Of a stretch of DNA of 35,267 nucleotides, positions 9,548 through 28,373 are shown piece after piece. The stretch spans positions 1 through 35,267 of the forward strand of contig NZ_FQUL01000024.1 of the NCBI RefSeq assembly GCF_900128965.1. Reading direction: 5' to 3'. Source of the stretch: Ferrithrix thermotolerans DSM 19514. GTDB taxonomy: Bacteria > Actinomycetota > Acidimicrobiia > Acidimicrobiales > Acidimicrobiaceae. The notes below the pieces were generated by a model. It was given only the letters and a program-made list of their open reading frames with translations, ran no database searches and was not told where the DNA came from. The stretch's first letter is position 1. The number at the start of each line of letters is the position of its first letter. A program made the translations under genes and the position numbers.

Positions 9548-10408
9548 GAGCGATAACAATATGAGACATATATATAGAACAAAGAGCGTTGCGACATATG
9601 CCGCCAGGAGGGCGACGGCATGACGCTGCGCAAGTCCGATTTGTATGGCTCGCTCTGGAAGAGCTGCGACGAGTTGCGGGGCGGTATGGACGCCTCGCAG
9701 TACAAGGACTATATCCTGACGCTGCTCTTCGTGAAGTACGTCTCGGATAAAGCCAAGACTGACCCCGACAGCCTAATCGAGGTTCCGGACGGTGGATCGT
9801 TCGATGACATGATAGCCCTCAAAGGCAATAAGGAGATCGGCGACAAGATCAACAAGATCATCGCCCGGCTTGCCGAGGCGAACGACCTACAGAAGGTCAT
9901 CGACCAAGCCGACTTCAACGACGAAGAGAAACTGGGTCGCGGCAAGGAGATGCAGGACCGGCTCACCAAGCTGGTCTCGATCTTCGCCGACCTCGACTTC
10001 AAAGGCAGCCGCGCCGAAGGTGACGACCTGCTTGGTGACGCCTACGAGTACCTGATGCGCCACTTCGCCACCGAGTCCGGCAAGAGCAAGGGCCAGTTCT
10101 ACACGCCCGCCGAAGTATCCCGGATACTGGCCAAGGTCGTAGGAATCGGTCCCACGACGAAGCTGGACCAGACGGTCTACGACCCAACCTGCGGATCCGG
10201 ATCGCTACTGCTCAAAGTCGCCGACGAAGCGCCACACGGGATCACGATCTACGGCCAGGAAAAAGATAATGCCACCTGGGCCTTGTCAAAGATGAACATG
10301 ATCCTGCACGGCAACGAGATCGCCGACATCCGCAAGGGTGACACGATCACCAGCCCGCAGTTCCTGAACGGAAGCCAGCTTCGCACCTTCGACTTCGCGG
10401 TTGCTAAT

Positions 10409-10417
10409 CCGCCGTTC
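10409..10417 (+). repeat. Left 9-bp core repeat at element junction
   Basis: CCGCCGTTC, the Pro-Pro-Phe codons of hsdM motif IV. The same nine bases recur at 21835-21843, where hsdM resumes in frame. The crossover must lie in or beside this shared sequence. Confidence 0.8.
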
Positions 10418-10418
10418 C

Positions 10419-10446
10419 TTGTAATGTCACCGTGTTGTGATATATT
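10419..10446 (+). promoter_or_regulatory. Probable leaderless promoter at the element's left edge
   Basis: TTGTAA (10419-10424) and TATATT (10441-10446) are separated by 16 bases. Transcription starting 7-9 bases after TATATT would begin at about the ATG at 10455, which has no ribosome site. This suggests a leaderless first gene. The promoter starts just inside the core, so it travels with the element. Confidence 0.5.
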
Positions 10447-10454
10447 GTGTTGCA

Positions 10455-11948
10455 ATGTTGGAGGACACAGAAAAGACGGACTGGCGGCTCTGCCGGGCAC
10501 AGCGCACGACGTGGAGAGGGAACTACAGTTCGTCGCTGCTTGACGAATGGGACAGCCTCGAAGAGGTTGAACAACGGCTGGGCATCGTTCCCGGTCTGCC
10601 GTTCCTGTTGCGACCAGACGGGACCGTCGATAGTGACGTGGTGGCGTACTTCACGAGTGCAAGCTTCAAGAGATTGGCTCCGGCATCTCGCCTGTCGTAC
10701 GCGATGGACTTGAAGGTGTTTTTCTCCTTCCTGGAGCGACAGGGCGCGAGTTGGCGAGATGCCACGCACGACAGCCTGCTCGACTACGAATACTGGCGTC
10801 GGCGTGACACCGATAACCTTCAGCGAGTGAGTGGTGCCAAGTTTGCCCGCGAACTGGCCGCCTGTGGTCGCTTCTACAAGTGGCAAGTTGACCACGGTGT
10901 CATCGAAGCGAGTCCTGTGCTGACGACGACGTATCGTGATCGGCGTGGTGACGTGGCGACAAGAGCGCAACTCCAGCCGACGAACGTGCGTTCCGTGAAG
11001 GTCAAGTGGCTTACTCCCCGCGCCTACCGGCGCTGGCGCGATGTCGGGCTTGGTGGTTACAACGGGGATGGCCTGCTGGACAGTTCGTGGCGAGGTCGCA
11101 ACGACGATCGCAATGTCTCGATGAGCGAGCTGATGTGGTCCAGCGGGCTGCGATTGCGAGAGGCTGGCTCGGTCTTGCTTACCGAGCTACCGACAGCGCA
11201 ATCCGCAGACCAGTACGTTCGTGGACACGTCGCTGAGGCAGTCGCGAAAGGTAGGGGTCGCGACTTTTGGGTCTCGCGCAGTGCCTTGCGGCGCATTGAC
11301 GCTTATGTCATGACGACTAGGGCTGCTGCGGTTCGACGTGCTCAGGTCTCTGGGCGCTACGACGAAATCGCCGAGCGGCGATTAGTCACTCAGATGAACG
11401 CTCGTGGAGATCTAATCATGGAAGACCGTCGTGGGCGATCCGAACGCACGAACATCAATGAGATGGACAGCGAGATCCGCCGATGCCTCTTCCAACAGAC
11501 TGACGACGGCGTCGAGCCGCTCTCTTTGTGGCTAACGGAGGCCGGAACTCCGATGCCTTATCTGACCTGGGAGGCGGTGTTCGCTGGCGCAAGCAGTCGA
11601 TGTGCCGCACAAGGTGTCCCAATCACTTGCCATCCGCACATGCTTCGTCACTCCTTCGCACTCCGCATGCTGGTCACGCTTATTCACAACTTCGACAGGC
11701 GTCTTGGGTTGAGCGAGCGAGAGCGCCTTGAGTACCGGCACCTATTTGGTGACCCCTGGGTGTTGGTTCAGCGATTGCTAGGTCACTCCAACCTCGTGAC
11801 GACCAAGTCCTACTACTTGGAACCGGTTCAGGGTCTACAGGTTGACATGTTTCTCAACGCGGACACTGACGATGAATCCGTACAGCAGCTGCTCACCAGA
11901 ATTTCTGAGATGTCGCCGCTGGTCCAAGACCTTGAAGGTCCCGCATGA
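10455..11948 (+). CDS. Tyrosine recombinase 1 of the trio (TnpA-like)
   Basis: A tyrosine-family site-specific recombinase, about 497 residues from the ATG at 10455. The frame also allows GTG at 10437. An N-terminal SAM-like core-binding domain (YAMDLKVFFSFLERQGASWR) is followed by the catalytic domain with all expected residues: Arg in SSGLRLREAGSVLL, HMLRH (His-x-x-Arg), LLGHSNLVTTKSYY with the Gly-His box, and the nucleophile Tyr. It is therefore probably active. Its stop overlaps the next start as ATGA, as do the following two genes, so the three are made together. Tn554 TnpA is shorter, so this is a relative and not an orthologue. The likely substrate is the element ends and a target inside hsdM motif IV. 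Confidence 0.85.
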   Translation: MLEDTEKTDWRLCRAQRTTWRGNYSSSLLDEWDSLEEVEQRLGIVPGLPFLLRPDGTVDSDVVAYFTSASFKRLAPASRLSYAMDLKVFFSFLERQGASWRDATHDSLLDYEYWRRRDTDNLQRVSGAKFARELAACGRFYKWQVDHGVIEASPVLTTTYRDRRGDVATRAQLQPTNVRSVKVKWLTPRAYRRWRDVGLGGYNGDGLLDSSWRGRNDDRNVSMSELMWSSGLRLREAGSVLLTELPTAQSADQYVRGHVAEAVAKGRGRDFWVSRSALRRIDAYVMTTRAAAVRRAQVSGRYDEIAERRLVTQMNARGDLIMEDRRGRSERTNINEMDSEIRRCLFQQTDDGVEPLSLWLTEAGTPMPYLTWEAVFAGASSRCAAQGVPITCHPHMLRHSFALRMLVTLIHNFDRRLGLSERERLEYRHLFGDPWVLVQRLLGHSNLVTTKSYYLEPVQGLQVDMFLNADTDDESVQQLLTRISEMSPLVQDLEGPA

Positions 11949-13780
11949 CGCGTAAGACTTCGGGTCACGCCGCAGCAATGCCGAAGCCGGGGTACAGCCG
12001 TCCTTCTCAGCGTGACGCGACTGGCCTCATGGTTACGCACATCACCGAGGACGGGGCGGTCACGAAAGTGTTTGACTTTCGTGAAGTCGATTGCCCGCCG
12101 GCTCTCTTACGGTCATTGGTCAGCGGATTCGCCGTAGCGACGGGAACTGACGGACGTTGGAAGTCGGCATCTTCCGCTGTTGCCGGGGCAGATACTTTGC
12201 GTCGGTTTATCCGCGAAATTGCTATGCAGCAGAGACCGCCGACTTCGATCAATGAGGTTGGACCAGAAGTGTGGTGGACCTGGCGTGCTGACGTTCAGGC
12301 TAAGAATCGTTGGCCGACCGCCGTCAATCACATGCGCGTTCTGCTTTTAGACACGCCTGGGCTTCCAGACACCACCCGAAAGGCCCTACGGGCTCGAACG
12401 CGTAAACCAAAAACCCGTCTTTACGATGCCTACACGCGAAGTGAGTTCCAACGAATTAAGAGTGCTGCATCAGCCATCGTTCGGACTGGCCAGCAGCGTA
12501 TTGACGCCAACCTTGCAATGCTCACCGCCTATCGCGCCGGAGAGGAGCCGTCCAACTCCCCGACGGTCCGCATACGAGGAGAGCTATGGAGCGCTGGCTC
12601 GCTGCTTGACTATCTTGCGCGAACCGGCGGCGTGCCCACCGAACTTACCGCCGCGGGACAATTCGCGTTGAGGAAGTTACTCAACCTCGAGGGCGCATCC
12701 ACAATCAATGAGGCCCTCTTCCCAAACTCGATGGAAGCTCTTTCGATGACGTACCTGCTCGTGTGCGAGCGTGGGTACAACCTTTCAGTAATCAATCAGC
12801 TGACAGTCAACCTTGACCGCGCCGATGATCGCAAGGATGAAATGCCAGTGTATGTGTTGCACCTGGACAAGCCACGTCGCGGACCGGCAGCACGATTCAG
12901 TGATGAGAGTCTCAGCGGTGAGTCGGGAAAGTTGATTGATCGAGCGATTGCGTTGACGGCGCAGGCTAGGGCCACAATGGCTGAACTGGGAAACCCTACA
13001 GATTCGCTGCTGTTATTTCGCAGCGGCAATCCATACGGCGGTAGGGAGATATTCCAGACACAGCTGGAAAATCCAAATCTGGTACAAAAGCGTTGGCACG
13101 CCTCGGCCGCCCTGTTGGCCGATGACGGAACCGCACTTCAAGTCACTCACCGACGACTTCGCTTAACCGAGCAGGTCCTCAACACCAAGCCTCGACAGAA
13201 CTCACCGACCGTCAGCGAGTCGGTGTACCGACGCCAAGATCCACAGACTCGCCGGGAGGCAATGGCCACCATCATTAGGGGGCAGGCCGAAGCGCTCGAA
13301 CACGCACGGGTGACCGTCGCTATGCGGTCACTGAGTGGCCAGGACATCGCTGAGGCGCAAGTGAATCCATCCGCACTCGCCGATCGTCTCGGCATTTCGG
13401 TGGAGAAGGTGCCTCTGCTACTTTCGGGCCTCCTGGATACCGGGACGGGAGCATGCCTCGACTTTCACAGCAGCCCCTTCACCCACGACGACTCCGGAAA
13501 TTGCACCGCGTCCTTCCTTGCATGTCTTGGCTGCCCCAATGCTGTGGCTACACCAGACCATCTACCGCGCTTAGTCGCCTTGAGCGACGCGCTTGAGCGC
13601 ATTGCGTCAGCCGTCACTCCAGCCGTGTGGAACGAGGACTTCTCTGACCACTTCGCACGCCTGACGGCACTGCTCACGGCCAACACCACCGCGGAGCAAC
13701 GCGGCCAAGCACGAACACAGCTCAGCGATGCAGATGAGGAGTGCCTCGAACGGCTACTAGCCAGGAGGCTTGACGCATGA
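11945..13780 (+). CDS. Tyrosine recombinase 2 of the trio (divergent integrase)
   Basis: A 611-residue protein of the large integrase type seen in trio elements. The C-terminal half has the divergent catalytic pattern VTHRRLRLTEQVL followed by NSPTVSESVYRR. The usual first Arg box appears as LLVCERGYNLSVINQL, without the typical G-[LI]-R, so its own catalysis is doubtful. A Cys/His cluster near the end (CLDFHSS ... CTASFLACLGCPNAV, about 503-530) is a probable zinc site characteristic of this subfamily. ATGA overlaps on both sides indicate coupling with genes 1 and 3. It may provide DNA binding or assembly while recombinases 1 or 3 do strand exchange. Confidence 0.8.
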   Translation: MTRKTSGHAAAMPKPGYSRPSQRDATGLMVTHITEDGAVTKVFDFREVDCPPALLRSLVSGFAVATGTDGRWKSASSAVAGADTLRRFIREIAMQQRPPTSINEVGPEVWWTWRADVQAKNRWPTAVNHMRVLLLDTPGLPDTTRKALRARTRKPKTRLYDAYTRSEFQRIKSAASAIVRTGQQRIDANLAMLTAYRAGEEPSNSPTVRIRGELWSAGSLLDYLARTGGVPTELTAAGQFALRKLLNLEGASTINEALFPNSMEALSMTYLLVCERGYNLSVINQLTVNLDRADDRKDEMPVYVLHLDKPRRGPAARFSDESLSGESGKLIDRAIALTAQARATMAELGNPTDSLLLFRSGNPYGGREIFQTQLENPNLVQKRWHASAALLADDGTALQVTHRRLRLTEQVLNTKPRQNSPTVSESVYRRQDPQTRREAMATIIRGQAEALEHARVTVAMRSLSGQDIAEAQVNPSALADRLGISVEKVPLLLSGLLDTGTGACLDFHSSPFTHDDSGNCTASFLACLGCPNAVATPDHLPRLVALSDALERIASAVTPAVWNEDFSDHFARLTALLTANTTAEQRGQARTQLSDADEECLERLLARRLDA

Positions 13781-15906
13781 GTAGATCTGCCGCAGCGAGA
13801 CACCGTGAACCGCAAATCTTTCAGACGGGTGCGGAAGAAGTCGTCTTCCGTAACGTGCAGGCAGATCCCGATAGCGGTCCGCTATCGCGCTACGGCGACG
13901 ATGCGTGGCTCTTGCACCCAATGGCACAGAAGCTCACGTCAGATCCTCTCAAGATTGATTTCGCGACCCTGCCTTCGTCGTATCGCGACACGGGTAAGCG
14001 ACTCGTCTGGACGTTCATCAATGAACGAACTCCAATGGATGCGCTGTCACGCCCTACGGCAATCCGAGATCGCCTCGCCGCTGGCTCAATCCCAACAATC
14101 TTTCACGACATTCGCATGTTCCTGAAGTGGTTAGACGCGCGTGGCGTCACTGATCTTCGTTCAGTGACGCCGGGCGATTTCCGGGCGTACGCTAGCCACG
14201 TCGCTGGGCGAAGTGTTACACGCGAAGTAAAAGGTCGCCAGCTTTTTAGCGTGACGCGCATCTGGCTGATTGCCCCGTATCTGCCACTCGACGATCGGAT
14301 GCTGCGTCCGACATGGGAAGACATTGCAGCGCAAGAAGATCGGATCGACTCCGTCATCGGACCCGCCAACTGGACTGGCGAAAACAAGAGGCTGCCGGTA
14401 CATCCACAGTCCATGTCAGCACTTCTGCTCGCTGCTCTTCGTTTCATAGAGGTGTTCCGTGACGACATTAACAATGCCGTCGCCGACAAGGCGAGGATGC
14501 AGACTCAGATTCCTCTGCGCCAAGAGCCCGAGCACGTTGAGAGGGCAAACGCGTATCTCCACCGTCTAAAGGCATCGGGTGGATCGCTGCCCGGAATGCG
14601 AGGAACCGGTCCAAAACCGCCTAACGACATAAACCTTGCCATTCAGTATCTGGCAGCCACGCTGAGAATCACTGAGAACCTGGCAAAGTCGTTGAGCAAT
14701 CGTGGCGTCGCGATTCGCCTCGGTACTGCGATGCCTACCACCATCACTGGTCTGGTAGATGGTGAGCCGTGGTGCAGTGCCATCGACTACTACGAAGTGG
14801 AGCAACTGCGTCACATGCTGATGATTGCGTGCTTCATAGTGGTTGCGTACCTATCGGGCATCCGCGTCGAAGAATGCCGTGCGCTTAGGCGAGGCTCTTG
14901 CACCGCCGCGCGCCCCGAGCCCGGCATGCCACCGCATTTCGAGATTCGCGGGCATTCGTTCAAAGATGCGTTGGACGAGGACGGCAATGCCATCCCGGGT
15001 GGAGTCGAGCGTGAAACTCCTTGGTTCGTCCTTGAGCCAGTCGCGAAAGCGATCGCCACCGCAGAGGCGATGCACAGCAGCGGTTATGTCTTCACACGTG
15101 GGTTGTTCAGAGCACACAAGCAGGAAGAACTCGAACCGCCGCTTGCGCAGGCTACTCGCGACTCCATACGCGGTTTCGTTGACTGGTGGAATGCCTATTG
15201 CGAGACCAACGGCAACACACGTGACGTAATTCCACCAGATCCTGATGGAGCCATAGTCCCTGCTCGTTTCCGGCGCACGCTGGCATGGTTTATCTACCGA
15301 GTACCCGGAGGCCGGATTGCTCTCGGTCTGCAGTACGGACACTTACGAGGCTATACGAGCGATGCCTACGGATCTCGTGTTGCGAGTGGACTACGCGACG
15401 TGTTTCCAATGGAAGAGGCATTGGCGGTAGCGGAAAGCCTTCACGAGGCGGCGCAGCGACTTGACGCGGGTGAACAAGTTTCAGGACCTGCATCCTCTAG
15501 GTACGTCAGTGGCGTCCGCGTTTTCCAGCGGACATTCGATGGCGCCTACTTGACCGCTCGCCAAATGGCGGCGCTTCGTAGAGATCCTCGACTACGTATC
15601 TACGACAACCCTTCTCGCGCACTCGCCTGCGTGTATGACCAGACGAAGGCACTCTGTCACCCGGACCGCAACCGCAACCGAGCGGATGTCACTCGCACTC
15701 CGGACATGAGTCGTTGCCGGGAGAACTGTGGCAACATCGCCCGCACTGATACTCACGCCGAATCGCTACAAGCGGAAATCGGTAATCTGCGTGAAGAGGC
15801 GGAAAGCCCGCTCACGCCCGAGCCAATTCGTGTGCGCCTGCTTGCGAGGATCGCCAAGCGAGAGAACGAACTTCAAGTACACACCCAGCAACGGAGCGTC
15901 TTATGA
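13777..15906 (+). CDS. Tyrosine recombinase 3 of the trio (TnpB-like)
   Basis: A 709-residue integrase-type protein. The catalytic half shows Arg in AYLSGIRVEECRAL, then RFRRTLAWFIYRVPGGRIAL in place of the HxxR box, then LQYGHLRGYTSDAYG, which holds the Gly-His box and candidate nucleophile Tyr. A C-terminal Cys cluster (CVYDQTKALC ... CRENCGN, about 611-650) probably binds zinc, and the protein ends in a charged helical tail. The size and layout fit TnpB-like proteins of Tn554-type elements. It starts in an ATGA overlap with recombinase 2 and ends in one with the TnpC-like gene. Confidence 0.82.
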   Translation: MSRSAAARHREPQIFQTGAEEVVFRNVQADPDSGPLSRYGDDAWLLHPMAQKLTSDPLKIDFATLPSSYRDTGKRLVWTFINERTPMDALSRPTAIRDRLAAGSIPTIFHDIRMFLKWLDARGVTDLRSVTPGDFRAYASHVAGRSVTREVKGRQLFSVTRIWLIAPYLPLDDRMLRPTWEDIAAQEDRIDSVIGPANWTGENKRLPVHPQSMSALLLAALRFIEVFRDDINNAVADKARMQTQIPLRQEPEHVERANAYLHRLKASGGSLPGMRGTGPKPPNDINLAIQYLAATLRITENLAKSLSNRGVAIRLGTAMPTTITGLVDGEPWCSAIDYYEVEQLRHMLMIACFIVVAYLSGIRVEECRALRRGSCTAARPEPGMPPHFEIRGHSFKDALDEDGNAIPGGVERETPWFVLEPVAKAIATAEAMHSSGYVFTRGLFRAHKQEELEPPLAQATRDSIRGFVDWWNAYCETNGNTRDVIPPDPDGAIVPARFRRTLAWFIYRVPGGRIALGLQYGHLRGYTSDAYGSRVASGLRDVFPMEEALAVAESLHEAAQRLDAGEQVSGPASSRYVSGVRVFQRTFDGAYLTARQMAALRRDPRLRIYDNPSRALACVYDQTKALCHPDRNRNRADVTRTPDMSRCRENCGNIARTDTHAESLQAEIGNLREEAESPLTPEPIRVRLLARIAKRENELQVHTQQRSVL

Positions 15907-16340
15907 CCCCTGACAAGCGCAAGCCCGCAGCAAAGATCGAGACCGTTGGTCAAGATGGTCTCGACCGTTTGCGCATCCGAGACGCGATGGCGCGTTTGAT
16001 TGATGGAGCGCCGCTCTACTCCGATGGGAAACTGACGGTGAAATCGCTCGCCGAAGAAGCCCAGGTGAAGCGTTGGCTCCTAACCCATAAGCACATTGAC
16101 CTGCAGGACGAGTTTCGAGCCAAGGTCGCTCAAGTCAACCACGTGCCGGCCGCTTTGCATCAGCATATTGACGCCAGACAGCAACTGGAACAGCGGGTCG
16201 CTCACCAGGCAGCAGAGCTACGCCAGGAACGTGAAACCGTGAAACGGTTGGAGCGTGTTGTGCTCGCTTTGACGTTGGAAAATCAACGTCTGCAAGTTGA
16301 GGCTTCAGCAACTGCCAACGTCGTGCGGATCAAGCCATGA
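15903..16340 (+). CDS. TnpC-like coiled-coil accessory protein (DUF6262-like)
   Basis: A 145-residue protein with an N-terminal HTH-like part (RDAMARLIDGAPLYSDGKLT followed by VKSLAEEAQVKRWLLTHKH) and a long C-terminal coiled coil (RQQLEQRVAHQAAELRQERE and onward). This layout matches the small third gene of Tn554-type elements, TnpC, which sets orientation and efficiency of transposition. The ATGA overlap with recombinase 3 supports one translational unit of four genes. After it, a gap of 115 bp precedes the cargo operon. Confidence 0.78.
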   Translation: MTPDKRKPAAKIETVGQDGLDRLRIRDAMARLIDGAPLYSDGKLTVKSLAEEAQVKRWLLTHKHIDLQDEFRAKVAQVNHVPAALHQHIDARQQLEQRVAHQAAELRQERETVKRLERVVLALTLENQRLQVEASATANVVRIKP

Positions 16341-16455
16341 CCTGCGGTCTCCAGATGACAGGGATGAGTGCCACAATTATGGCCTCGCGCACGATGGAGA
16401 TTGTCGGCGTGCGGCAATTGCGTGATTGGACAATAGGACGGAGGACGGTTACTGA

Positions 16456-17364
16456 ATGACGTCACTGAATAGATCGGTTCGTGCCGACACTAAGAACATG
16501 GTTGAGGGCGCAAAGAGTCACCTCCGAAATGAGAGCATAAGAGGGGCAAGTGCACCGAGGGGGAAGTTGATGTCTGCACCAAAATGGTGCTCAGCCACAC
16601 GAAGCGCTGACTGCGAAAACGATCCCGATGCTGGTTGGGTTTACGAAACTGATTCCAACATCGCTTGGCATGAGTCCGCCAAACTGGTGGAATTGACTGG
16701 CGATGCCATCCTGGCTCCCCTTGAAGCGCAGTTCGGTCAAGTCCGATCACGCCAGCGCGTTCGTGAGTTGGCGGAGGTATTCACGCATCAGCGCGAGGTA
16801 GACGCAATGCTTGACATGATCCCAGATGCGTTCACTGAACTCGACGTGACGTTCTTGGAGCCGACCTGCGGTTCCGGCAACTTCCTCGTCGAGATCCTAC
16901 GACGCAAGTTGCAGATGGTCAAAAAAGCGGAGTGCGTTTCCCAAGAGCACTATGAACATCGTCTGCTACGAGCGTTGGCGTCGATCTACGGCGTTGACAT
17001 CTCGATAGACAACGTCACCGAGGCACGAGCTCGTATGGCCCACACGGTGCTAAGCCACTACCAATCGGACGCCAATACCATCGAGCCAACGACTGGTTTC
17101 TTGAACGCTGCCGCACTCATCCTTGGCGACAACATCGTGCTCGGTGACTCAATCAACAAGGCAGACGAGATTGAGCTGTGCGAGTGGCGCCCGTATTCCG
17201 CTGGTCGGTTCCAGCGTGTCTGGAGCTGCGCGTTGGTCCCCGAGCATGCACGAAGCTTGTTTTGGCAGGAGCGAGTGCAAGACGTTGAACCGATTCACTA
17301 CAGCGAGCTGTTCGCCGCGGCAACGCCACCCAAGACCAAGAGCCGAACAAGGACGAAGAAATGA
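16456..17364 (+). CDS. Cargo gene 1: methyltransferase-fold protein lacking NPPY
   Basis: A 302-residue N6-DNA-methylase-like protein. The core reads VFTHQREVDAMLDMIP, then the SAM motif FLEPTCGSGNFLVEIL (134-149), then YGVDISIDNVTEARAR (motif II). It then runs through ALILGDNIVLGDS and ends without any [DN]PP[YF] catalytic motif. The SAM half of a methyltransferase is thus present and the catalytic half absent. It is followed, overlapping by four bases, by a full methyltransferase. The start at 16456 has GGAGGACGG about 11 bases upstream. ATG at 16570 has GAGGGGG at a better distance and starts where family-like sequence begins, so it is a serious alternative. It probably forms a subunit with gene 2. 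Confidence 0.75.
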   Translation: MTSLNRSVRADTKNMVEGAKSHLRNESIRGASAPRGKLMSAPKWCSATRSADCENDPDAGWVYETDSNIAWHESAKLVELTGDAILAPLEAQFGQVRSRQRVRELAEVFTHQREVDAMLDMIPDAFTELDVTFLEPTCGSGNFLVEILRRKLQMVKKAECVSQEHYEHRLLRALASIYGVDISIDNVTEARARMAHTVLSHYQSDANTIEPTTGFLNAAALILGDNIVLGDSINKADEIELCEWRPYSAGRFQRVWSCALVPEHARSLFWQERVQDVEPIHYSELFAAATPPKTKSRTRTKK

Positions 17365-19049
17365 GTACGACTGACTCAAAGATCACCACCATCGGCGTGG
17401 GGACCGTGCGCACTCACCATATCCCCGACATCCTGGACGTGATCGCGGCGCTCTCATCAGACGCAATTCCGACGCCACCGCTGCTGGCTCGTGCTCTGCT
17501 CGATCTACTGCCTATCGACGTATGGAGCAACCCCGACTATCGCTGGCTCGACCCAGCGACGAAATCAGGCTCGATTCTTCGAGAAGTTGCCCGCCGTCTG
17601 ATGGAGGGTCTGGCTAAGTGGGAGCCCGATCCCCAGGCGCGGGCGCAGCACATTCTGAAGAACATGTTGTTTGGCGCGGCCATCACCCAAGTCCACGGTG
17701 AGATGACTCGCCGGTCGGTCTACGTGTCTCGAGACGCTGCTGGTGCCCACTCTGCGGTGCTGTTTGATGATCCTCAGGGCAACCTGCCCTTCATTCAAGC
17801 TGAACATGATTACCCCACGAACAGGGATGGGCGAGCTTCGGGACCGTGTCGCATCTGTGGCGCCCCTGTCCGACTCGAACGTGGATCTACCAGAGAGAAC
17901 TACGCCTACGCCTTCATCCATGGGGCGTATCCAACCGAGGAGATGAAAGACATGAAGTTCGACGTGATCGTGGGTAATCCACCGTATCAGATAGGGACCG
18001 GAGGTTTCGGAGCTTCGGCATCGCCGGTATACCAACTGTTCGTAGATCATGCCATCAATCTCAATCCAAAATACCTTGTCATGATCATTCCGTCTCGTTG
18101 GTTCACCGGTGGCAAGGGGCTCGATGACTTTCGTGCCCGCATGATCGCCGACCGCCACATTGTGAAGATCGTGGACAACCCCAAGCTCTTCGACTGTTTC
18201 CCGGGCGTTGAGATCAAGGGCGGGGTCAACTACTTCCTCTGGGACCGTGACCACGATGGTGACTGCGAGTTCTCTACGCGCATTGATGGAACCATCATCT
18301 CAACTACGACACGTGACCTTCGTGTGGGCCACGGCGTCATCATCAGGGACAACCTGGCGCAGTCAATCGTCGAGAAGTGTCGGCCGGAGAAAGTGGAGGA
18401 CTCGCTCGTTCCTCGCTTCTCCATGAGGGCACCCTTCGGACAGTCTCTTGAGACAAACTTCTCCGGAGCTGCTGATGTACCGTTCGAAGGCTCACTTCCG
18501 CTGATCTTCGGCAGTCACATAGGCTACATCCGACCCGACCAAATCGAGAAAAACGCGGCCTGGGTGAAAAAGTGGAAGGTCCTGGTACCCGTCGCTGGGG
18601 ACGGACACGGCCGAGAAGTCTCTTATGTGTTAGGCGAACCGATTGCGCTTGCGCCGGGGTCGGCTTGTACTCAGACATACCTTGTCGCGGGAGTCTTCGA
18701 TACCAAGACCGAGGCGCGAAACTACGCCGACTTCCTCACGACCAAACTCGTCCGCTTTTTGGTGCTCCAGCGCAAGAGCACGCAGCACTTGCGATCAGAC
18801 CGTCTTCGTTTTGTGCCCATGCTTGACATGCAGCGGCAATGGACGGATGAGAACCTCTTCGACCACTTCGGGCTCACTCAAGCTGAACGCGACTACGTCG
18901 AAAGTTCGATCCATCCTCGTGAGGCAATCCTTTCGCTTGACTCCCCGATCCCGCCTTCGCACCTGCCAGGTGGATCAAAGTACCGCGCACCCGGTACTGA
19001 GCGCGATGCTACCGAGGCTCTTGATACGGACGTGGAGGACGAAGAGTGA
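17361..19049 (+). CDS. Cargo gene 2: Eco57I-type N6-adenine DNA methyltransferase
   Basis: A 562-residue protein. A degenerate SAM motif (WLDPATKSGSILREVARRL, 62-80) is followed by a Cys pair (CRIC, 163-166) and the catalytic motif VIVGNPPYQIG (NPPY 206-209), then the Eco57I-type core (PKYLVMIIPSRWFTGGKGLD, IVKIVDNPKLFDCFPGVEIK). The C-terminal half resembles a target-recognition region. It starts as ATGA inside the end of gene 1 and ends in GTGA with gene 3, so the three are one operon. It is the likely modification enzyme of the cargo system and may be paired with gene 1 as cofactor-binding or regulatory partner. Confidence 0.85.
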   Translation: MSTTDSKITTIGVGTVRTHHIPDILDVIAALSSDAIPTPPLLARALLDLLPIDVWSNPDYRWLDPATKSGSILREVARRLMEGLAKWEPDPQARAQHILKNMLFGAAITQVHGEMTRRSVYVSRDAAGAHSAVLFDDPQGNLPFIQAEHDYPTNRDGRASGPCRICGAPVRLERGSTRENYAYAFIHGAYPTEEMKDMKFDVIVGNPPYQIGTGGFGASASPVYQLFVDHAINLNPKYLVMIIPSRWFTGGKGLDDFRARMIADRHIVKIVDNPKLFDCFPGVEIKGGVNYFLWDRDHDGDCEFSTRIDGTIISTTTRDLRVGHGVIIRDNLAQSIVEKCRPEKVEDSLVPRFSMRAPFGQSLETNFSGAADVPFEGSLPLIFGSHIGYIRPDQIEKNAAWVKKWKVLVPVAGDGHGREVSYVLGEPIALAPGSACTQTYLVAGVFDTKTEARNYADFLTTKLVRFLVLQRKSTQHLRSDRLRFVPMLDMQRQWTDENLFDHFGLTQAERDYVESSIHPREAILSLDSPIPPSHLPGGSKYRAPGTERDATEALDTDVEDEE

Positions 19050-21655
19050 GCGTCAAGGCTGCCGGTCGCATCTACGTCTACACGGCACCGGGATACGACA
19101 CCGAGTGGACTCGCACGGTGGGGTCGTCGAGCATCGAGGGGCGTGGTCGTCTGAAGGTTGGCTGGACCGGTCGACCCGACCCGCTGGTACGTATCAAAGA
19201 GCAGTCGGGCACGATGTACCCCGACGGGGAAGGCATCGTTATCCTGCTAGACGAACCGGCGGTTCGCTCAGACGGTACAAGCTTCACTGACTCGGACATC
19301 CACAGGGTCCTCGACAACGCTGGGGTTCAACGAAGCAGCGAGGTTGTCGAAGCCACGCTTGATGAGGTCAAGGCCGCCATCGCCGCTGTCCGCTCGGGAC
19401 TGGACTATGATCCACTGCGCACTGAGGACTTCATGCCACGTCCTGAACAGCAGCAAGCCATCGAGCTCACGAAGACGTACTTTACCCAGCACGCCAATGA
19501 TCTTCGGCCACCACGCTTCCTTTGGAATGCGAAGATGCGCTTCGGGAAAACGTTCTCGACGTACCAGTTGGCTCGCCAAATGGCCTGGCGTCGCGTTCTC
19601 GTCCTGACCTACAAGCCAGCAGTACGAAACGCCTGGCAAGACGACCTGCGTAACCATGTGGACTTTGCTGAGTGGGTCTACTCAGATCGCGATCACCCCT
19701 GTGACCCGGACATCGATGCCCCCATGGTCTGGTTCGCCTCGTTCCAGGACCTGCTTGGAACTACGACCGATGGCGACGTCAAGGAACACAACGAGTCTAT
19801 CCACCTCATCGACTGGGACTGCATCGTCCTCGATGAATACCACTTCGGTGCTTGGCAGGGTGCAGCCAAAGAAGTCTGCAGCCCCGCGAGCGCCGCTAGC
19901 TCGACGGAGGCCGAACGCAAGGCCGAGCTGCGCGATCTCGATGAAGAGACAGGGCGCGCTGACGAGGTCACTGAGCTCGTTTATGACGGTATTCCTCGTC
20001 TGCTCGCCGCCACACCTGATTCCACCGGCATCAACCAGGACCTTGACGCTAAGGACATGCGACTATCGAGCCGCAGCTACCTATACCTCTCCGGTACTCC
20101 CTTTCGAGCTATCGCTGACGGCGAGTTCAACGAAGAGCAGATCTTCAACTGGACCTATCCGGACGAGCAGCGTGCGAAGCGTGCGTGGGACACAGACCCC
20201 GCCAAAGACCCGACCCGCAACCCCTACCGGGAACTCCCAGCAATGGAGATGTTCACGTACTCCCTATCGGAGTTGGCGTCGGTTAAGATCGATCAGCGAC
20301 CAGACGGACTGTTTGACCTCTCTGGGTACTTTGCCGCTAAGAAAGTCGGCTCGGAGTATCACTTCGACGATCCAGATCGCATCAACGAGTTCTTGAACAT
20401 GCTCCTCGGACGCCTGACTCAGTCAGCGACAGAGAAGCTGCTCAACAACTTCAAGCCACCCTTTCCTTTCAGTGACGGTCGTTTCACCGAGGCAGTTGAG
20501 CACACCGTGTGGTTCATGCCAAGCGTCGCATCAGCACATGCGATGAAGGCTTCGCTGCTAGCCCATCCGTTTTTCAAGGACTTCTTGGTCCACGTCGCGG
20601 CCGGTGGTACCAAAGTCGGTGCAGCAGCCAAGCCCCCCGTTGACAAGATGCTAGCGGAAGCGGCGAAGCTCGGCAAGCAGACGATCACGCTCTCTGTTGG
20701 TCAGTTGATGACGGGCGTGACGGTGTCCCAGTGGGGTGCAATCCTGATCCTGCGCTCCCTGAAGTCGCCCGAGGCGTACTTCCAGGCGGCCTTCCGTGTG
20801 CAGTCCCCGTGGACGTCCAAGCGACCCGATGGAACGCGAGTCGTCAAGAAACAGACTTGCTACGTCTTCGACTTCGACCCCAATCGCGCCTTGAGTCTCA
20901 TCTATCAGTACGGCACGAAGCTTGCACGCTCGACAACGAAGACGGCGCCGGCTGAGGTCATCGGCGAACTCATTGAGTTCCTACCCATCTTCGCCTTTGA
21001 CGGGGGCCGGATGGACCCGGTTGACGTCAACGCAGTCATGGACTGGGGAACCGCGGGGGCCGGTGCGGCCATGCTCGCCAAGCGCTGGGGAAGCCCTCGG
21101 CTCATCGACCTCTCCGAGGCGGTGCTCACAAAGCTGCTCGAAGACACCGACCTTCTCGACCGCTTGGAGCAGATGGAAGACTTCCGCAACCTGCGCGAAG
21201 ACGCGACCAAAATCATCGCGCAGTCCAAGAAGATCAAGTCCGGCAAGAAGCCCAAAGCGTTCGATGGCGACCCCGAAGACCCAGAGGTGACGGCGGCGCG
21301 CAAAGCTAAGCGTGAGCAAGTGAAGACCCTCAGGGCTAAGTTGCTCAAGTTCGTTCAGTCGATCCCCGTCTTCATGTACCTCACGGACTTTCGCGAGGAG
21401 TCTCTGGTCGACGTGATTGAGTCACTTGACACCCAGCTTTTCGAGCGCGTGACGGGGCTAACCCTGGACGACTTCCGCAAGCTCTCAGATGTGGGCATCT
21501 TCAACCCCGATCAGATGGACGAGGCGATTTGGCAGTTCCGTCTCTTCGAAAGAGCGAGCCTGGACTACCTCGGTACCGGCACTGGCGAGGACACGCAGGA
21601 GCGCGTGGGCCTATGGGAACGTACTGTTGCGACCGAAGGCGAAACGGTCACTTAG
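19046..21655 (+). CDS. Cargo gene 3: GIY-YIG nuclease plus SF2 helicase
   Basis: An 869-residue putative restriction effector. The N-terminal 110 residues resemble a T5orf172-type GIY-YIG domain: IYVYTAPG (9-16), LKVGWTGRPDPLVRIKEQ (36-53), then SDIHRVLDNAG and EVVEATLDEVKAAI. An SF2 helicase follows: Walker A-like NAKMRFGKT (161-169), LVLTYKPAVRNAWQDDL, DEYH (263-266), YLYLSGTPFRA, and late motifs MTGVTVSQWG and YFQAAFRVQSPW. The C-terminal 250 residues are helical and unrecognised. GTG start overlaps gene 2. By analogy with helicase-nuclease restriction subunits it would translocate on and cut unmodified DNA. That is inference. Confidence 0.82.
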   Translation: MSVKAAGRIYVYTAPGYDTEWTRTVGSSSIEGRGRLKVGWTGRPDPLVRIKEQSGTMYPDGEGIVILLDEPAVRSDGTSFTDSDIHRVLDNAGVQRSSEVVEATLDEVKAAIAAVRSGLDYDPLRTEDFMPRPEQQQAIELTKTYFTQHANDLRPPRFLWNAKMRFGKTFSTYQLARQMAWRRVLVLTYKPAVRNAWQDDLRNHVDFAEWVYSDRDHPCDPDIDAPMVWFASFQDLLGTTTDGDVKEHNESIHLIDWDCIVLDEYHFGAWQGAAKEVCSPASAASSTEAERKAELRDLDEETGRADEVTELVYDGIPRLLAATPDSTGINQDLDAKDMRLSSRSYLYLSGTPFRAIADGEFNEEQIFNWTYPDEQRAKRAWDTDPAKDPTRNPYRELPAMEMFTYSLSELASVKIDQRPDGLFDLSGYFAAKKVGSEYHFDDPDRINEFLNMLLGRLTQSATEKLLNNFKPPFPFSDGRFTEAVEHTVWFMPSVASAHAMKASLLAHPFFKDFLVHVAAGGTKVGAAAKPPVDKMLAEAAKLGKQTITLSVGQLMTGVTVSQWGAILILRSLKSPEAYFQAAFRVQSPWTSKRPDGTRVVKKQTCYVFDFDPNRALSLIYQYGTKLARSTTKTAPAEVIGELIEFLPIFAFDGGRMDPVDVNAVMDWGTAGAGAAMLAKRWGSPRLIDLSEAVLTKLLEDTDLLDRLEQMEDFRNLREDATKIIAQSKKIKSGKKPKAFDGDPEDPEVTAARKAKREQVKTLRAKLLKFVQSIPVFMYLTDFREESLVDVIESLDTQLFERVTGLTLDDFRKLSDVGIFNPDQMDEAIWQFRLFERASLDYLGTGTGEDTQERVGLWERTVATEGETVT

Positions 21656-21834
21656 GCTAGATTCACTTCTTAGGAACGTTTTCTCGAGGTGACTCAATCC
21701 AGCCGATTCGACCCATGTCTGTTCATTCTTGAAGTACACAAGCCTGAGGACCCCACTTATCTCTCAACACCTTCTAGAGCACATCCGTACAGATATTCGT
21801 ATTGGTTTGCAACACGTCTGAACTGTAGAAGGAA
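21656..21834. other. Right end of the inserted element, non-coding
   Basis: This stretch runs from the helicase stop to the core repeat. It is visibly less GC-rich than the genes, has no credible frame, and holds TTGCAACAC (21807-21815) overlapping CAACACG (21811-21817). These are the inverted partners of motifs at the left end. It probably holds the right recombinase-binding site. No clear terminator hairpin was found. Confidence 0.5.
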
Positions 21835-21843
21835 CCGCCGTTC
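21835..21843 (+). repeat. Right 9-bp core repeat at element junction
   Basis: CCGCCGTTC, identical to 10409-10417. The following base, 21844, starts the Ser codon that resumes hsdM in the original frame. Confidence 0.8.
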
Positions 21844-23478
21844 TCGGTCAAATCGTGGAGCAATGGCCTAGAGAACGACTACGGCCGCTTCGAGTTCGGC
21901 ATGCCCCCCGCCAAGAACGGCGACTATGCCTTCCTGCTACACATCCTGAAGTCGCTCAAGAGCACCGGCAAGGCGGCAGTCATCCTCCCTCACGGCGTGC
22001 TCTTCCGTGGCAACGCCGAGGCCACCATCCGCAAGGAACTACTCAGGCGCGGATACATCAAGGGCATTATCGGTCTGCCGCCCAACCTCTTCTACGGCAC
22101 GGGCATCCCTGCTTGCATCCTCGTTCTCGACAAGGAGAACGCCCAAGCACGTACCGGCGTCTTCATGATCGACGCCTCGAAAGGCTTCATGAAGGACGGT
22201 CCGAAGAACCGGCTGCGCAGCCGGGACATCCACAAGATCGTCGACGTCTTCAACCGGCAACTGGAGATCGACCGCTACTCCCGGATGGTGCCGCTCGCCG
22301 AGATCGCCGATCCGAAGAACGACTACAACCTCAACATCCCTCGCTACATCGACTCCTCAGAGCCCGAGGATCTCCAGGACCTGAGAGCCCACCTCCACGG
22401 GGGCATCCCTGAACGTGACATCGACGCTCTGAGCGCCTACTGGGAGGCCTTCCCGAGCCTACGGTCCACGCTCTTCAAGCCGAACCGGCCGGGATACCTC
22501 GATCTCGCCATCGACGTCACCGACGTCCAGCAGACGATTCTCGACTCCTCGGAGTTCAAGGACTTCGCCAGGCGTGCCCAGGACCTCGTCACCGACTGGT
22601 TCGGCGTTCACCGGTCCGAGCTCGAGAACATCAACGCAGACACTCGTTCCAACGAGCTGATCGCCAGTCTCGCTGATGACCTCCTCGCACTCTTCAAGTC
22701 GGTCCCCCTACTCGACGAGTACGACATCTACGAGCAGCTGATGACCTACTGGCACGAAACGATGCACGACGATGTCTTCCTGATCATGAACGATGGATGG
22801 CTGGAAGCGGCGAAGCCCCGCAAAGCCATAGAAGACAAGGACCGCAAGCTCGCGGAGGCTCCTGATCTCGTTGTCGGCTCAGGCAAGTCGGCAACCAAGT
22901 ACAAGATGGACCTGCTGCCTCCGAGTCTCATCGAAGCTCGCTACTTCCGGGCTGAGCAGGAACGCGTGGCGGAACTTGATGCAGCAGCCTAAGAGGCATC
23001 CCGAGCGGTCGAGGAGTTCATCGAGGAGAACGCCACCGACGAGGGCCTGCTGTCGGAGGCCATGGACGACGGCAAGGTAACGAAAGCTCTCGCTGCCGCC
23101 CGACTGAAGGATGCCAAGCGTGAAGGCTCCGACCCAGACGAAGTAAAAGCCCTGGAGTACTTGTTAGATCTCTACGCCAAGGAAGTGAACGCAAAGAAGA
23201 AAGCGAAGGATGCGCGCGGCGCTCTTGACCTTGCGGCCCTGAAACAGTATGACGATCTTACTGAGGCTGAGATCAAGCGACTGGTGATTGAGGACAAGTG
23301 GCTCATGACCATTCAGCTTCGAATAGGCAACGAAGTCAACGCTCTCACGCTCGTGCTTGTTGAACGGATCCAGGAGCTTGGGGAGCGGTATGCCGAGACT
23401 GTTCGTGATCTCGAAGGCAAAGTTGCGGAGCTCAGTGTCCGTGTTACTCAGTATCTAACGGAGATGGGGGTCGACTGA
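21844..23478 (+). pseudogene. hsdM: HsdM, C-terminal part, with an extra in-frame stop
   Basis: Resumes directly after NPPF as SVKSWSNGLENDYGRFEFGM, then the HsdM core (KAAVILPHGVLFRGNAEATI, KGIIGLPPNLFYGTGIPACI). A second break is the TAA at 22990-22992 (after AELDAAA). The same frame continues with EASRAVEEFIEENATDEGLL and a coiled-coil tail to 23478. The tail interacts with HsdS in relatives. Joined to 9620-10417 it would be about 810 codons with one stop. The stop argues that the gene was, or became, defective independently of the insertion. ATG at 21901 could start a fragment, but no ribosome site supports it. TGATG overlaps hsdS. Confidence 0.9.
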
Positions 23479-24572
23479 TGGAGACGAGAAAGACTTCGTG
23501 GCGGACACGACGTCTCGGCGATCTAATTGCATACGAACAGCCTGGTCGGTATCTAGTTCGATCGACGAACTACCGAGAACGAGGTCGGTACCCCGTGTTG
23601 ACGGCGGGCAAGACGTTTGTGCTGGGGTATACCAACGAAACTGACGGAGCCTACACACGCCATCCCGTGGTCATCTTCGATGACTTCACGACTGCCTCGA
23701 AGTACGTTGACTTCGACTTTAAGGCGAAGTCTTCGGCAATGAAGATGCTAAGTGCCCGATCGGGCGAGGCCGACCTACGCTTCGTCTACGAGCGGATGCA
23801 GCTGATCAACTATCCGATTGTTGATCACAAGCGTCGGTGGATCGAGGAGTTCAGCAAACTTGAGGTGGAGGTTCCCGGCCTTGAGGAGCAAACAGCCATT
23901 GCGGAGGTGGCAGACGAGCTTTCGAGATACATTACCTCCCTCAAGCGCCTGATAACCAAGAAGCAGGCTATCAAGCAGGGGATGATGCAGGAGCTGCTGA
24001 CGGGACGAACGCGGCTGCCAGGGTTCGCGGGTAAATGGCATCGCCGTCCACTGGCTGAGTTGCTGAGTTACGAGCAGCCGACTCGATACCTCGTCAAGAC
24101 AGTTAAGCAGCTTGATTCTGGTCGTATTCCTGTGCTGACCGCGGGCAAGACCTTCGTCCTGGGCTACACGAATGACTCTGACGGAGTGTATACGTCGCAT
24201 CCCGTCATCATTTTTGATGACTTCACTACCGCTTCACAGTATGTTGACTTTGATTTTAAGGTGAAGTCGTCGGCTATGAAGATTCTGACTGCTCGCCCGG
24301 GTGTAGATCTTAGGTTCGTGTACGAGCGCATACAGCTCATCGAGTTTCCGCTTGGGGATCATAAACGGTACTGGATCTCGGAGTACGGCAAGCAAGAGAT
24401 CGAGGTGCCAACGAAGGCAGAACAGACCGCCATTAGCCAGATCATCGCCGATAGTGATCGGGAGCTCACCTTGCTCGATCTAAGGCTCGCCAAGGCGCGC
24501 GCTATTAAGCAAGGCATGATGCAGGAGCTACTTACGGGGCGGACGCGCCTGGTGGTGGAGGGCGCTGCATGA
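23478..24572 (+). CDS. hsdS: Type I specificity subunit HsdS with two near-identical recognition domains
   Basis: A 364-residue DNA-recognition subunit. Two target-recognition domains and two helical spacers are tandem copies of one unit: YEQPGRYLV and YEQPTRYLV; VLTAGKTFVLGYTN in both; FDDFTTASKYVDFDFK and FDDFTTASQYVDFDFK; and both spacers end KQGMMQELLTGRTRL. Ordinary HsdS proteins have unrelated domains that read two different half-sites. Two alike domains predict a palindromic bipartite target. It starts in a TGATG overlap with hsdM and ends in ATGA with the next gene. The frame is intact but useless without a working HsdM, unless one is supplied from elsewhere. Confidence 0.9.
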   Translation: METRKTSWRTRRLGDLIAYEQPGRYLVRSTNYRERGRYPVLTAGKTFVLGYTNETDGAYTRHPVVIFDDFTTASKYVDFDFKAKSSAMKMLSARSGEADLRFVYERMQLINYPIVDHKRRWIEEFSKLEVEVPGLEEQTAIAEVADELSRYITSLKRLITKKQAIKQGMMQELLTGRTRLPGFAGKWHRRPLAELLSYEQPTRYLVKTVKQLDSGRIPVLTAGKTFVLGYTNDSDGVYTSHPVIIFDDFTTASQYVDFDFKVKSSAMKILTARPGVDLRFVYERIQLIEFPLGDHKRYWISEYGKQEIEVPTKAEQTAISQIIADSDRELTLLDLRLAKARAIKQGMMQELLTGRTRLVVEGAA

Positions 24573-25293
24573 ACACTGCGTGGGCAGTCGAGGAGTTGGA
24601 CCGGTTCATCGCTGCCACTGAACTGCATCACGTTTCGTCGCCTCCGAACGTTATCAGCGTTGGGACCTACAAGACGACTGCTGAGCAATCGGAAGTCGTA
24701 AGGCAAGCCCAGGTTATAGAGGAGATCTTGCATCGAGTGACTCCCGACTGGCGTTCCCTGGAGGTCAATACGACGCGCAAGCCGTGGGTCCTACATCATG
24801 AGGCAGCTATTCGTTGTCGCGAGGTGCTAGTTCGTCAAGACGAATTAAAGCGCAATCTCGGAGAGGACGCACCTGAGCTGTCAGCCGCTGAACTCCACCC
24901 CTGGATCTGGGGCGGGGCATCATCGCTTTGGCAGTCCGGTCATTACCGTGAGGCAGTTGAAGGCGCGATCCGGAAGCTCAACGCTGAGACGCAGAACAAG
25001 GTGGGACGCCGAGACGTCAGCGAGACCGATCTGTTCAAGCAGGCGTTTAGCTTGGACGTGCCAGGGATCGGTAAGCCTCGCCTCCGTCGTATGCAAAGCG
25101 ACGGAAGCAAGACCTACGAATCACTCCAGCGAGGCGCGATGAGCTTCGCCGAAGGTGTGTTCGCTGGTATCAGGAACCACTGAGTCATGAGGCGGATCGG
25201 GAGCTGCACGAGCAGGAGGCCCTTGAGTACCTTGCGTCGCTGAGCGTTCTCGCACGATGGGTTGATGCATCATCCGTGGAGGTCGCCTCATGA
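24569..25293 (+). pseudogene. TIGR02391 (Ymh-type) protein, frameshifted near the end
   Basis: A protein of the TIGR02391/Hypoth_Ymh family, often found within R-M and defence operons. The typical C-terminal domain starts at WIWGGASSLWQSGHYREAVE and reads EGAIRKLNAETQNKVGRRDV onward. At IRN the frame meets a stop (HIS then TGA). Adding one C in the run at 25177-25178 restores RNPLSHE, the family's conserved ending motif, and the frame then reads ADRELHEQEALEYLASLSVL to a TGA at 25291-25293. This overlaps hsdR as ATGA, which confirms that the restored frame is ancestral (241 residues). The present product (204 residues) lacks the RNPxSHE tail. A one-base sequencing error is possible. Confidence 0.82.
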
Positions 25294-28200: not shown

Positions 28201-28373
28201 ACCTGGCCGTTGATATCGACAAGGCCGTCCGGCACTCGAAACCCGACTCCTGGGTTGGCAACAAACTAAAGGAAAAGAAGGTCAGACAGGCCATCCGTGC
28301 TGCGCTACCAGGGGACTTCGAGAACCTCGATGAGCTGTTCGACCTGGTGAAGGCCCGTGATGAGTACCGCTAG
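25290..28373 (+). CDS. hsdR: Type I restriction subunit HsdR
   Basis: A 1027-residue motor and nuclease subunit of the type I complex. The PD-(D/E)XK nuclease is N-terminal: RPDLVLYVNGLALGTIELKR (about 133-152, Asp135 and Glu149-x-Lys151). The SF2 translocase has Walker A QGSGKS (275-280), DEAH (390-393), FTGTPLL, and the late motif LLTGFDAPSATYLYIDK with QAICRVNR. The C-terminal region (from about 780) is helical and binds HsdM/HsdS in relatives. The length is normal and no damage is seen. It needs an M2S core, which is disrupted here, so it should be inert. Confidence 0.93.
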   Translation: MSDVGQPERRAQERVVKLLLEQLDYDYLGNWEYRENSNIEAELLWQNLKARGYDDNLTTKALDKLKSDASLGGGRDLYEANKDVYGLLRYGVKVKPGIGEHTETVWLIDWENPKTNHFGVAEEVTVAGNHVKRPDLVLYVNGLALGTIELKRSKVAVSEGVRQTIGNQKADFIRPFFTTVQLVMAGNDVEGLRYAVIDTPEKYWLSWKEPSNIEAPLDRALVQMCSKERFLEIVHDFMVFDAGTKKTCRHNQYFGVKAAQARVIKREGGIIWHTQGSGKSLTMVWLAKWLRENQPDARVLLVTDRTELDEQIEGVFKGVNEDIYRTTSGADLLGTLNNGLPWLICSLVHKFGGSENETERDEADGEFIRELKAKLPKGFQAKGNLFVFVDEAHRTQSGKLHEAMKQILPGAMFIGFTGTPLLKSDKETSIETFGSFIHTYKFDEAVIDGVVLDLCYEARSIDQELTSPSRVDEWFEAQTKGMTDLSKAELKKRWGTMQKVVSSEPRARQIVNDILLDMYKRPRLLSGRGNAMLVSASIYQACKFYELFCQAGFKGKCAIITSYEPQAGDISKEDSGEGATERLRQYEIYRQMLADHFNEPADQAVTKVALFEKQVKEKFLNEPGQMRLLIVVDKLLTGFDAPSATYLYIDKKMQDHGLFQAICRVNRLDGDDKDYGYIVDYRDLFNSLESAITDYTGGALDGYDKKDIEGLLSDRIEKAREDLDQALEQIRALCEPVEPPKGTLQYQKYFCAAEQGNAEQLKANEPKRVELYKAVMALVRTYGNLANEMEAAGYSAEQAASIKAEVAHYASVRDEVKLGAGEDVDFKQYEAGMRHLLDTYIQAKPSKVLSDFDNATLIDLIVKLGPSALDKLPAGIKKDPGAVAETITNNMRKVIIDERPLNPKYYDRMSELLDALLEERRKGALEYKDFLARLLEHAAKLGKGESDTAYPEWADNGARRALYDFFYPDLNLAVDIDKAVRHSKPDSWVGNKLKEKKVRQAIRAALPGDFENLDELFDLVKARDEYR

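Follow-up and report, generated by a model that had tools for sequence, protein, structure and literature searches.

A putative tyrosine-recombinase-operon element class that targets the Pro-Pro codons of DNA methyltransferase motif IV and exchanges defence genes

In the actinobacterium Ferrithrix thermotolerans DSM 19514, a type I methyltransferase gene (hsdM) is split at the two proline codons of its catalytic motif IV by an inserted element of about 11.4 kb. We analysed positions 1-35,267 of contig NZ_FQUL01000024.1, referred to below as the window, together with the junctions of related elements. The insert is very likely a site-specific element mobilized by a tyrosine-recombinase operon, of the group that comprises SEs, GInts and Tn554, which inserts at the CCNCCN sequence of methyltransferase motif IV and thereby swaps one defence system for another.

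The interrupted hsdM gene and its insert

Positions 10403-10417 of the window read GCT AAT CCG CCG TTC (A-N-P-P-F), in frame with the HsdM open reading frame that begins at 9620. The left half of the gene matches Pfam HsdM_N (E 1.4e-17) and positions 3-135 of the 311 in the N6_Mtase profile (E 9.2e-43); the remainder of that profile (156-309 of 311, E 4.6e-51) is found in a downstream open reading frame at 21901-22989. The exact right junction, 21835-21843, is CCGCCG TTC followed by TCGGTCAAATCG, and the 3' half of hsdM restarts at 21835 as CCG CCG TTC TCG GTC (P-P-F-S-V), with hsdS and hsdR behind it. Joined together, 'LRTFDFAVANPP' from the left and 'FSVKSWSNGLENDYGRF' from the right match 'LRTFDYIVMNPPFSVKSWNNGLENDYGRF' of the uninterrupted orthologue, the HsdM carried as cargo on Mycolicibacterium poriferae plasmid pJCM12603. 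Identity to this protein is 86% over 244 aa on the left and 74% over 382 aa on the right, and the window halves rejoin without loss to match intact HsdM elsewhere. Homology also runs on in frame past the TAA at 22990-22992; such a stop is expected in a dead gene, and an assembly error is also possible. Downstream of hsdR, the window contains a gene for a YgjP/SprT-like metallopeptidase (28357-29088) with a 72% identical counterpart in the M. poriferae cargo system. Its place behind hsdR in both suggests that type I systems of this kind may regularly be accompanied by such a gene.

The left end of the element is followed by a four-gene operon (Table 1). In our alignment, R239, H401, R404, H450, and Y460 of IntA are invariant; these are the usual tyrosine-recombinase residues. 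Protein B has no Pfam or NCBIfam match, and the alignment reveals neither catalytic residues nor an HxxR; the best Foldseek matches of its AlphaFold model (mean pLDDT 76) are Cre chains, at a weak E of about 0.01. Protein C, which likewise has no Pfam match, retains invariant R363, R497/R500, H522, and Y531 in an integrase-like context without the box-II His. No conjugation gene was recognised among the main open reading frames of 10415-21834. In the M. poriferae copy (L009), an IS21-type element lies between intA and the second operon gene (11476-13897 of that locus).

Table 1. Features of the window and, in the last row, insertion sites of the second recombinase-operon clade
Feature	Coordinates	Strand	Basis
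Interrupted hsdM, 5' part (type I methyltransferase), ending ...DFAVANPP	9620..10414	+	Pfam HsdM_N, N6_Mtase; orthologue
Left (IntA-proximal) 6-bp core CCGCCG	10409..10414	+	Sequence
Inserted element, about 11.4 kb	10415..21834	+	CCGCCG repeats; imperfect inverted ends TTCCTTGTA...GTGTTG / CAACAC...TAGAAGGAA
Left terminal inverted repeat region	10415..10460	+	TTCC...GTGTTG conserved at left end in relatives
intA, tyrosine recombinase, 503 aa	10437..11948	+	Phage_int_SAM_1, Phage_integrase
Protein B, second gene, 611 aa, apparently non-catalytic recombinase relative (Tfp-like position)	11945..13780	+	Weak fold match
Protein C, third gene, 709 aa, large tyrosine-recombinase-like	13777..15906	+	Alignment
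Fourth gene, small protein, 145 aa (GinD/Srap/TnpC position)	15903..16340	+	Conserved, syntenic in relatives
Cargo: methyltransferase-like N-terminal part (MmeI/PglX-like)	16456..17364	+	Profile searches
Cargo: Eco57I-type methyltransferase with its own NPPY (AATCCACCGTAT at 17976)	17361..19049	+	Pfam Eco57I E 6.2e-28; motif
Cargo: 869-aa protein, like part of a type IIG enzyme	19046..21655	+	PADLOC REase_MTase_IIG E 1.9e-20
Right terminal inverted repeat region, TTGCAACACgtctgaactgTAGAAGGAA	21790..21834	+	Same pattern at right end of 10 other insertions
Right 6-bp core CCGCCG	21835..21840	+	Junctions; polarity from two comparisons
hsdM, 3' part, in-frame TAA at 22990-22992 before the last ~137 codons	21841..23478	+	Homology
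hsdS	23478-24572	+	Methylase_S
hsdR	25290-28373	+	HSDR_N, SWI2_SNF2; 73% identical to M. poriferae cargo HsdR
Rest of the presumably disabled type I system (hsdS and hsdR)	23478..28373	+	Methylase_S, HSDR_N, SWI2_SNF2
Second-clade sites	L106 (M. vanbaalenii plasmid NZ_CP126903) near 5990; L140 near 2900; L141 near 2950	antisense	

Targets, junctions, and cores in relatives

Close relatives were collected from plasmid records, one scan of 84,980 genomes, and one family-level search. The operon is rare near the host, with protein B in 2 of 98 relatives (the window's own genome included), and is present in other Actinomycetota; viral contigs searched with protein B and IntA yielded no useful relative. 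The left junction reads [N/D]-P-P in 21 of the 22 located copies. Among copies with an IntA about 47% or more identical and a readable left end, all but one abut an Asn or Asp codon followed by CCNCCN. When targets were counted as flank clusters, with genes 90% or more identical entered once, 18 of the 19 were DNA methyltransferases cut at [N/D]PP. By Pfam or sequence, these belong to the HsdM, ISP (ISP_coupler, Type_ISP_C), N6_N4_Mtase/type III Mod, DUF1156, MmeI, and Eco57I families. One copy with a small frame break in its record (L015) is counted as an additional case, and another, with an IntA broken at its start (L016), was excluded. Such a proportion rules out chance, as P is about 5e-9 even if 30% of acceptable sites were methyltransferase sites. 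In the one exception, L017, the junction reads VSPPF; this copy is located 3' of a different gene, and no methyltransferase is in frame there. An earlier, sequence-only reading of the window had proposed the codons of NPP[YF] as the integration target and suggested checking whether motif IV is enriched among the insertion sites of relatives. The junctions of close relatives bear out this description, extended to DPP[YF], as does the enrichment among the sites checked; close relatives outside methyltransferase genes, which that reading held would refute it, amount to the single case of L017.

Right ends could be read for 11 insertions (the window, L009, L011, L015, L018, L019, L022, L023, L027, L035, and the outer of two copies in M. 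austroafricanum). A search for attR with GGAA plus Phe returned the window alone, and relaxing the residue to Tyr returned the others. For L017, L010, L025, L036, L042, and short contigs, where the sequence ended or no matching end was present, the evidence is the left junction. All 11 right junctions resume PP[Y/F], with cores that are all CCNCCN; the reads include PPFSVKSW, PPYKSGQG, PPYNTGND, PPYSVGQT, PPYYDNIG, PPYG[VF]DWK, and PPYNTGKD. It is the right junction that gives the native codon after Pro-Pro, a Tyr codon in the majority of relatives. The Phe seen at every left junction is the element's own TTC, and the native residue is Tyr or Phe, as the right junctions show. The sequence-only reading had placed the targeted motif at 10403-10417: hsdM is indeed cut at this motif, but the TTC at 10415-10417 belongs to the end of the element and not to the target.

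The element terminates in imperfect inverted repeats, with TTCC...GTGTTG at the left end and CAACAC...GAA at the right end, around a 6-bp core, and the overlap is 6 bp, CCNCCN, that is, two Pro codons. The left cores of the 22 copies are CCGCCG (8), CCGCCC (8), CCGCCT (2), CCACCC (2), CCTCCC (1), and CCTCCT (1). Two comparisons are informative on which core belongs to the target. A plasmid of M. vanbaalenii carries an ISP gene 99.6% identical to that of L009, uninterrupted at the site and with the core CCGCCT; L009 itself has CCGCCG at its left junction and CCGCCT at its right one. The second comparison is between M. canariasense and M. austroafricanum, each with an element in hsdM. The elements differ (89% identity over 5.85 kb), whereas the hsdM flanks agree at 1932/1932 and 1941/1941 bases; both right cores read CCTCCG, and the left ones CCGCCG and CCGCCT, respectively. 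From these two comparisons, on which the polarity rests, the target's six bases stay on the right (IntA-distal) side and the left six arrive with the element. The opposite arrangement, a footprint at attR as expected from SEs, was considered and rejected, as both comparisons place the footprint at attL and the target's 6 bp at attR. By analogy with these two relatives, the right core CCGCCG of the window is probably the target's own and the left CCGCCG was probably brought from the previous site. Because left cores are always CCNCCN, the previous homes of these elements were probably Pro-Pro sites too. Empty alleles exist for three target families: the ISP gene above, hsdM orthologues (81-88% identical), and Mod orthologues (83-86%).

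These data suggest a mechanism in which the four-gene operon would join a circular form of the element to the 6-bp CCNCCN of the two prolines in motif IV ([N/D]PP[Y/F]). As the two wobble positions of the core are free, the same recombinases would fit many unrelated methyltransferase families. Insertion would split the gene such that the left half ends in [N/D]PP and runs into the element's TTC, while the target's six bases and the remainder of the gene come to lie on the right. Since the M part is indispensable to type I, type III, ISP, and comparable systems, an insertion probably inactivates the resident system with no toxic effect on the cell, and the cargo would supply another.

Clades and the source of target specificity

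In the IntA tree, all methyltransferase-targeting copies and L017 fall on one side of a branch with support 94/91, recovered in 96% of bootstrap trees; the window IntA is a long branch, and its exact place is less sure. Clades with other targets adjoin this one, and the sites differ as well in more distant relatives, where IntA identity drops below about 47%. Motif IV targeting is hence a property of one clade and not of all such recombinase trios. One sister clade, represented by L028 and L031 (left ends near 9970), occupies ...PED-IE-F in each of two genera with the core ATCGAG/ATCGAA, perhaps in dprA, which suggests that other clades also use conserved protein motifs. Another (L033 and L037, left end near 9970) lies antisense beside a gene reading WLQAYMLEAARLRLGSRVLEIGSGGYNAAL, which by eye looks like a protein-isoaspartate-type methyltransferase, at a site other than motif IV. 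A second recombinase-operon clade, with an IntA about 30% identical to that of the window, is inserted antisense at methyltransferase motif I in three of the three nearest relatives (L106, L140, and L141), where the sites are FTGTGTF in an ISP gene, ACGCGNF in MmeI, and TCGSGAF in an Eco57I gene. A search for further members of this clade in 396 genomes at E 1e-110, run without a positive control, returned none.

In the sequence-only reading, recognition of the motif's coding sequence by a recombinase would provide targets in most genomes. The 12-mer RAYCCNCCNTWY occurs 26-78 times per genome, similar to a reversed control pattern, at sites by no means confined to methyltransferases. With T added at -8 and -11, the second codon positions of the usual hydrophobic residues, there are 3-12 sites per genome versus 0-4 in the control, and about two thirds of the extended sites inspected look, from sequence, like amino-methyltransferases. 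Genes resembling the housekeeping methyltransferases PrmC, RsmD, and RsmC carry the same motif, as judged by a sequence look, and no insertion in them was found among the located copies. Since the 12-mer is not enriched and no hit was found in these housekeeping genes, the codons of the motif are not by themselves enough to account for the targets; recognition extends further into the flank, or insertions at other sites are lost through selection.

One could accordingly propose that sequence specificity is loose and that the methyltransferase bias comes from selection, with insertions elsewhere being lost and a broken restriction-modification system being tolerated or even aiding entry. The control-level frequency of the 12-mer, the untouched housekeeping genes, and L017 all speak for this. 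Selection alone, however, would permit insertion anywhere in the target genes, whereas every hit falls on the same codon pair rather than being scattered across dispensable restriction-modification genes, and the right cores of all eleven insertions are CCNCCN. As a full account we find it rather unlikely, although some additional selection is likely at work. We think, from these sequence patterns, that recognition of the motif codons in DNA and selection for harmless targets both act.

The two remaining explanations fare far worse. A single old insertion, inherited and spread with its flanks and diversified by recombination around one site, would account for copies that share a target gene (L009, L030, and L032; likewise L015 and L027). 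It is very improbable: the methyltransferases hit come from six or more unrelated families, their flanks form 19 clusters at 90% identity, an identical gene holds two different elements, and uninterrupted alleles exist. More improbable still is that the split hsdM is an assembly artefact or a chance truncation beside an unrelated recombinase operon: the window does come from a draft genome of 95 contigs, but both halves are colinear with the intact orthologue and the same architecture is found in complete plasmids. Site-specific insertion at motif IV remains the best reading of the window.

Cargo, known systems, and a possible turnover of restriction

The expectation that the element brings in new methylation-type or other defence genes holds for those with cargo examined. 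L009 carries a type I M-S-R set with SIR2 and a DUF87 protein; L010, L011, and L027 carry type IIG-like genes; L018 has the BREX genes pglX-pglZ-brxL, L022 a type III Mod-Res pair, and the outer M. austroafricanum copy an HmaC relative. SNF2/PLD-type helicases are present in L011, L019, and L035, and the one 566-aa protein scanned from L023 gave no match. From gene content, the element would replace the host's defence. Five of the six cargo methyltransferases inspected have a CCNCCN motif of their own, as does the cargo HsdM of L009; the same scan did not find it in the IIG protein of L027. Because cargo methyltransferases hold the motif, nesting is expected, and it is seen in M. austroafricanum (contig C5 of genome G485), where an outer element (40294-81600) splits hsdM and an inner one (49198-70245) of the same clade, carrying BREX genes, lies in a DUF1156 methyltransferase close to the HmaC relative.

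The gene order resembles that of SEs more closely than that of GInts, the latter compared by description. As in SEs, a catalytic IntA comes first, followed by a non-catalytic protein, a large catalytic recombinase, and a small protein, an approximate likeness given that the third lacks the box-II His; imperfect inverted ends, a 6-bp spacer that leaves a footprint, and target specificity are also shared. SEs are described in Gammaproteobacteria only, with the target's 6 bp at the IntA-proximal attL and the footprint at attR, and methyltransferase targets are not mentioned (PMC10214605); the polarity here, from two comparisons, is the opposite. GInts combine three tyrosine recombinases and a small protein at one end with cargo behind, restriction-modification genes being mentioned, and have imperfect direct repeats and 6-nt staggered cuts (Bardaji et al. 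2017, PMC5385486). They target conserved genes such as those for ssb, an ABC transporter, and ribonucleotide reductase, either internally or at an end, and neither Actinobacteria nor methyltransferase targets are mentioned (PMC5385486). The degenerate recombinase is the third gene in GInts and the second here. RIT elements have three recombinases of 315-410 aa, all with the catalytic Tyr, and 34-bp terminal repeats (PMC10214605), unlike the 503, 611, and 709 aa and the fourth gene found here. The Tn554 family shares three-protein transposition, a 6-bp footprint, a small third protein, and site specificity; it differs in that TnpA-TnpB-TnpC, of Firmicutes, has no counterpart of the second gene, against four conserved genes here. 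Tn554 itself uses the fixed att554 site.

Homing introns and inteins occupy the codons of highly conserved motifs and tolerate silent changes. The sequence-only reading had drawn this parallel, and its target logic stands; homing introns and inteins, however, splice out and preserve the host gene, whereas the present element disrupts its target. Methyltransferase targeting is not wholly new, as it is reported for streptococcal ICEs of the Tn1806 type, which use triple serine integrases, insert in and split methyltransferase genes, and nest in other elements (PMC12942858, PMC4701971, PMC7563491). According to the excerpts of these papers, one of them from 2026, the targets are hsdM, SNF2-methyltransferase, and Eco57I methyltransferase genes, as shown experimentally in Streptococcus agalactiae, and within those excerpts the site is not connected with the catalytic motif. 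We note that the Tn1806 core in them, TGGG-GGGA/T, may be the antisense of Asn/Asp-Pro-Pro codons. These elements are conjugative and from Firmicutes, and their serine integrases are unrelated to the tyrosine-type IntA. In a literature search with subscription papers and preprints outside its scope, we found no description of motif IV targeting, nor any account of methyltransferase integration sites for tyrosine-recombinase operons or for Actinobacteria; the rule at the level of the motif and the core with its tolerance of wobble changes appear to be new.

For most site-specific elements, the insertion site is a tRNA gene or the end of a conserved gene. In the present case, the site of an entire clade is a catalytic motif common to unrelated gene families. 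This provides targets in most genomes, and these targets are part of the defences that the host itself sets against incoming DNA. From the CCNCCN core follows a clear and testable rule on the silent codon changes that a tyrosine recombinase can accept. On balance, we lean modestly toward the broader view that separate recombinase lineages have converged on the catalytic motifs of restriction methyltransferases, the tyrosine trio on motif IV in sense, the second trio clade on motif I in antisense (three of three nearest sites), and the streptococcal triple-serine ICEs possibly on motif IV. Together they would form a class that swaps one methylation-based defence for another and, because most cargo methyltransferases examined carry the motif, whose members are themselves targets. 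The interrupted type I system of the window and the cargo system of the M. poriferae element are orthologues, which offers a concrete route for the turnover of restriction systems.
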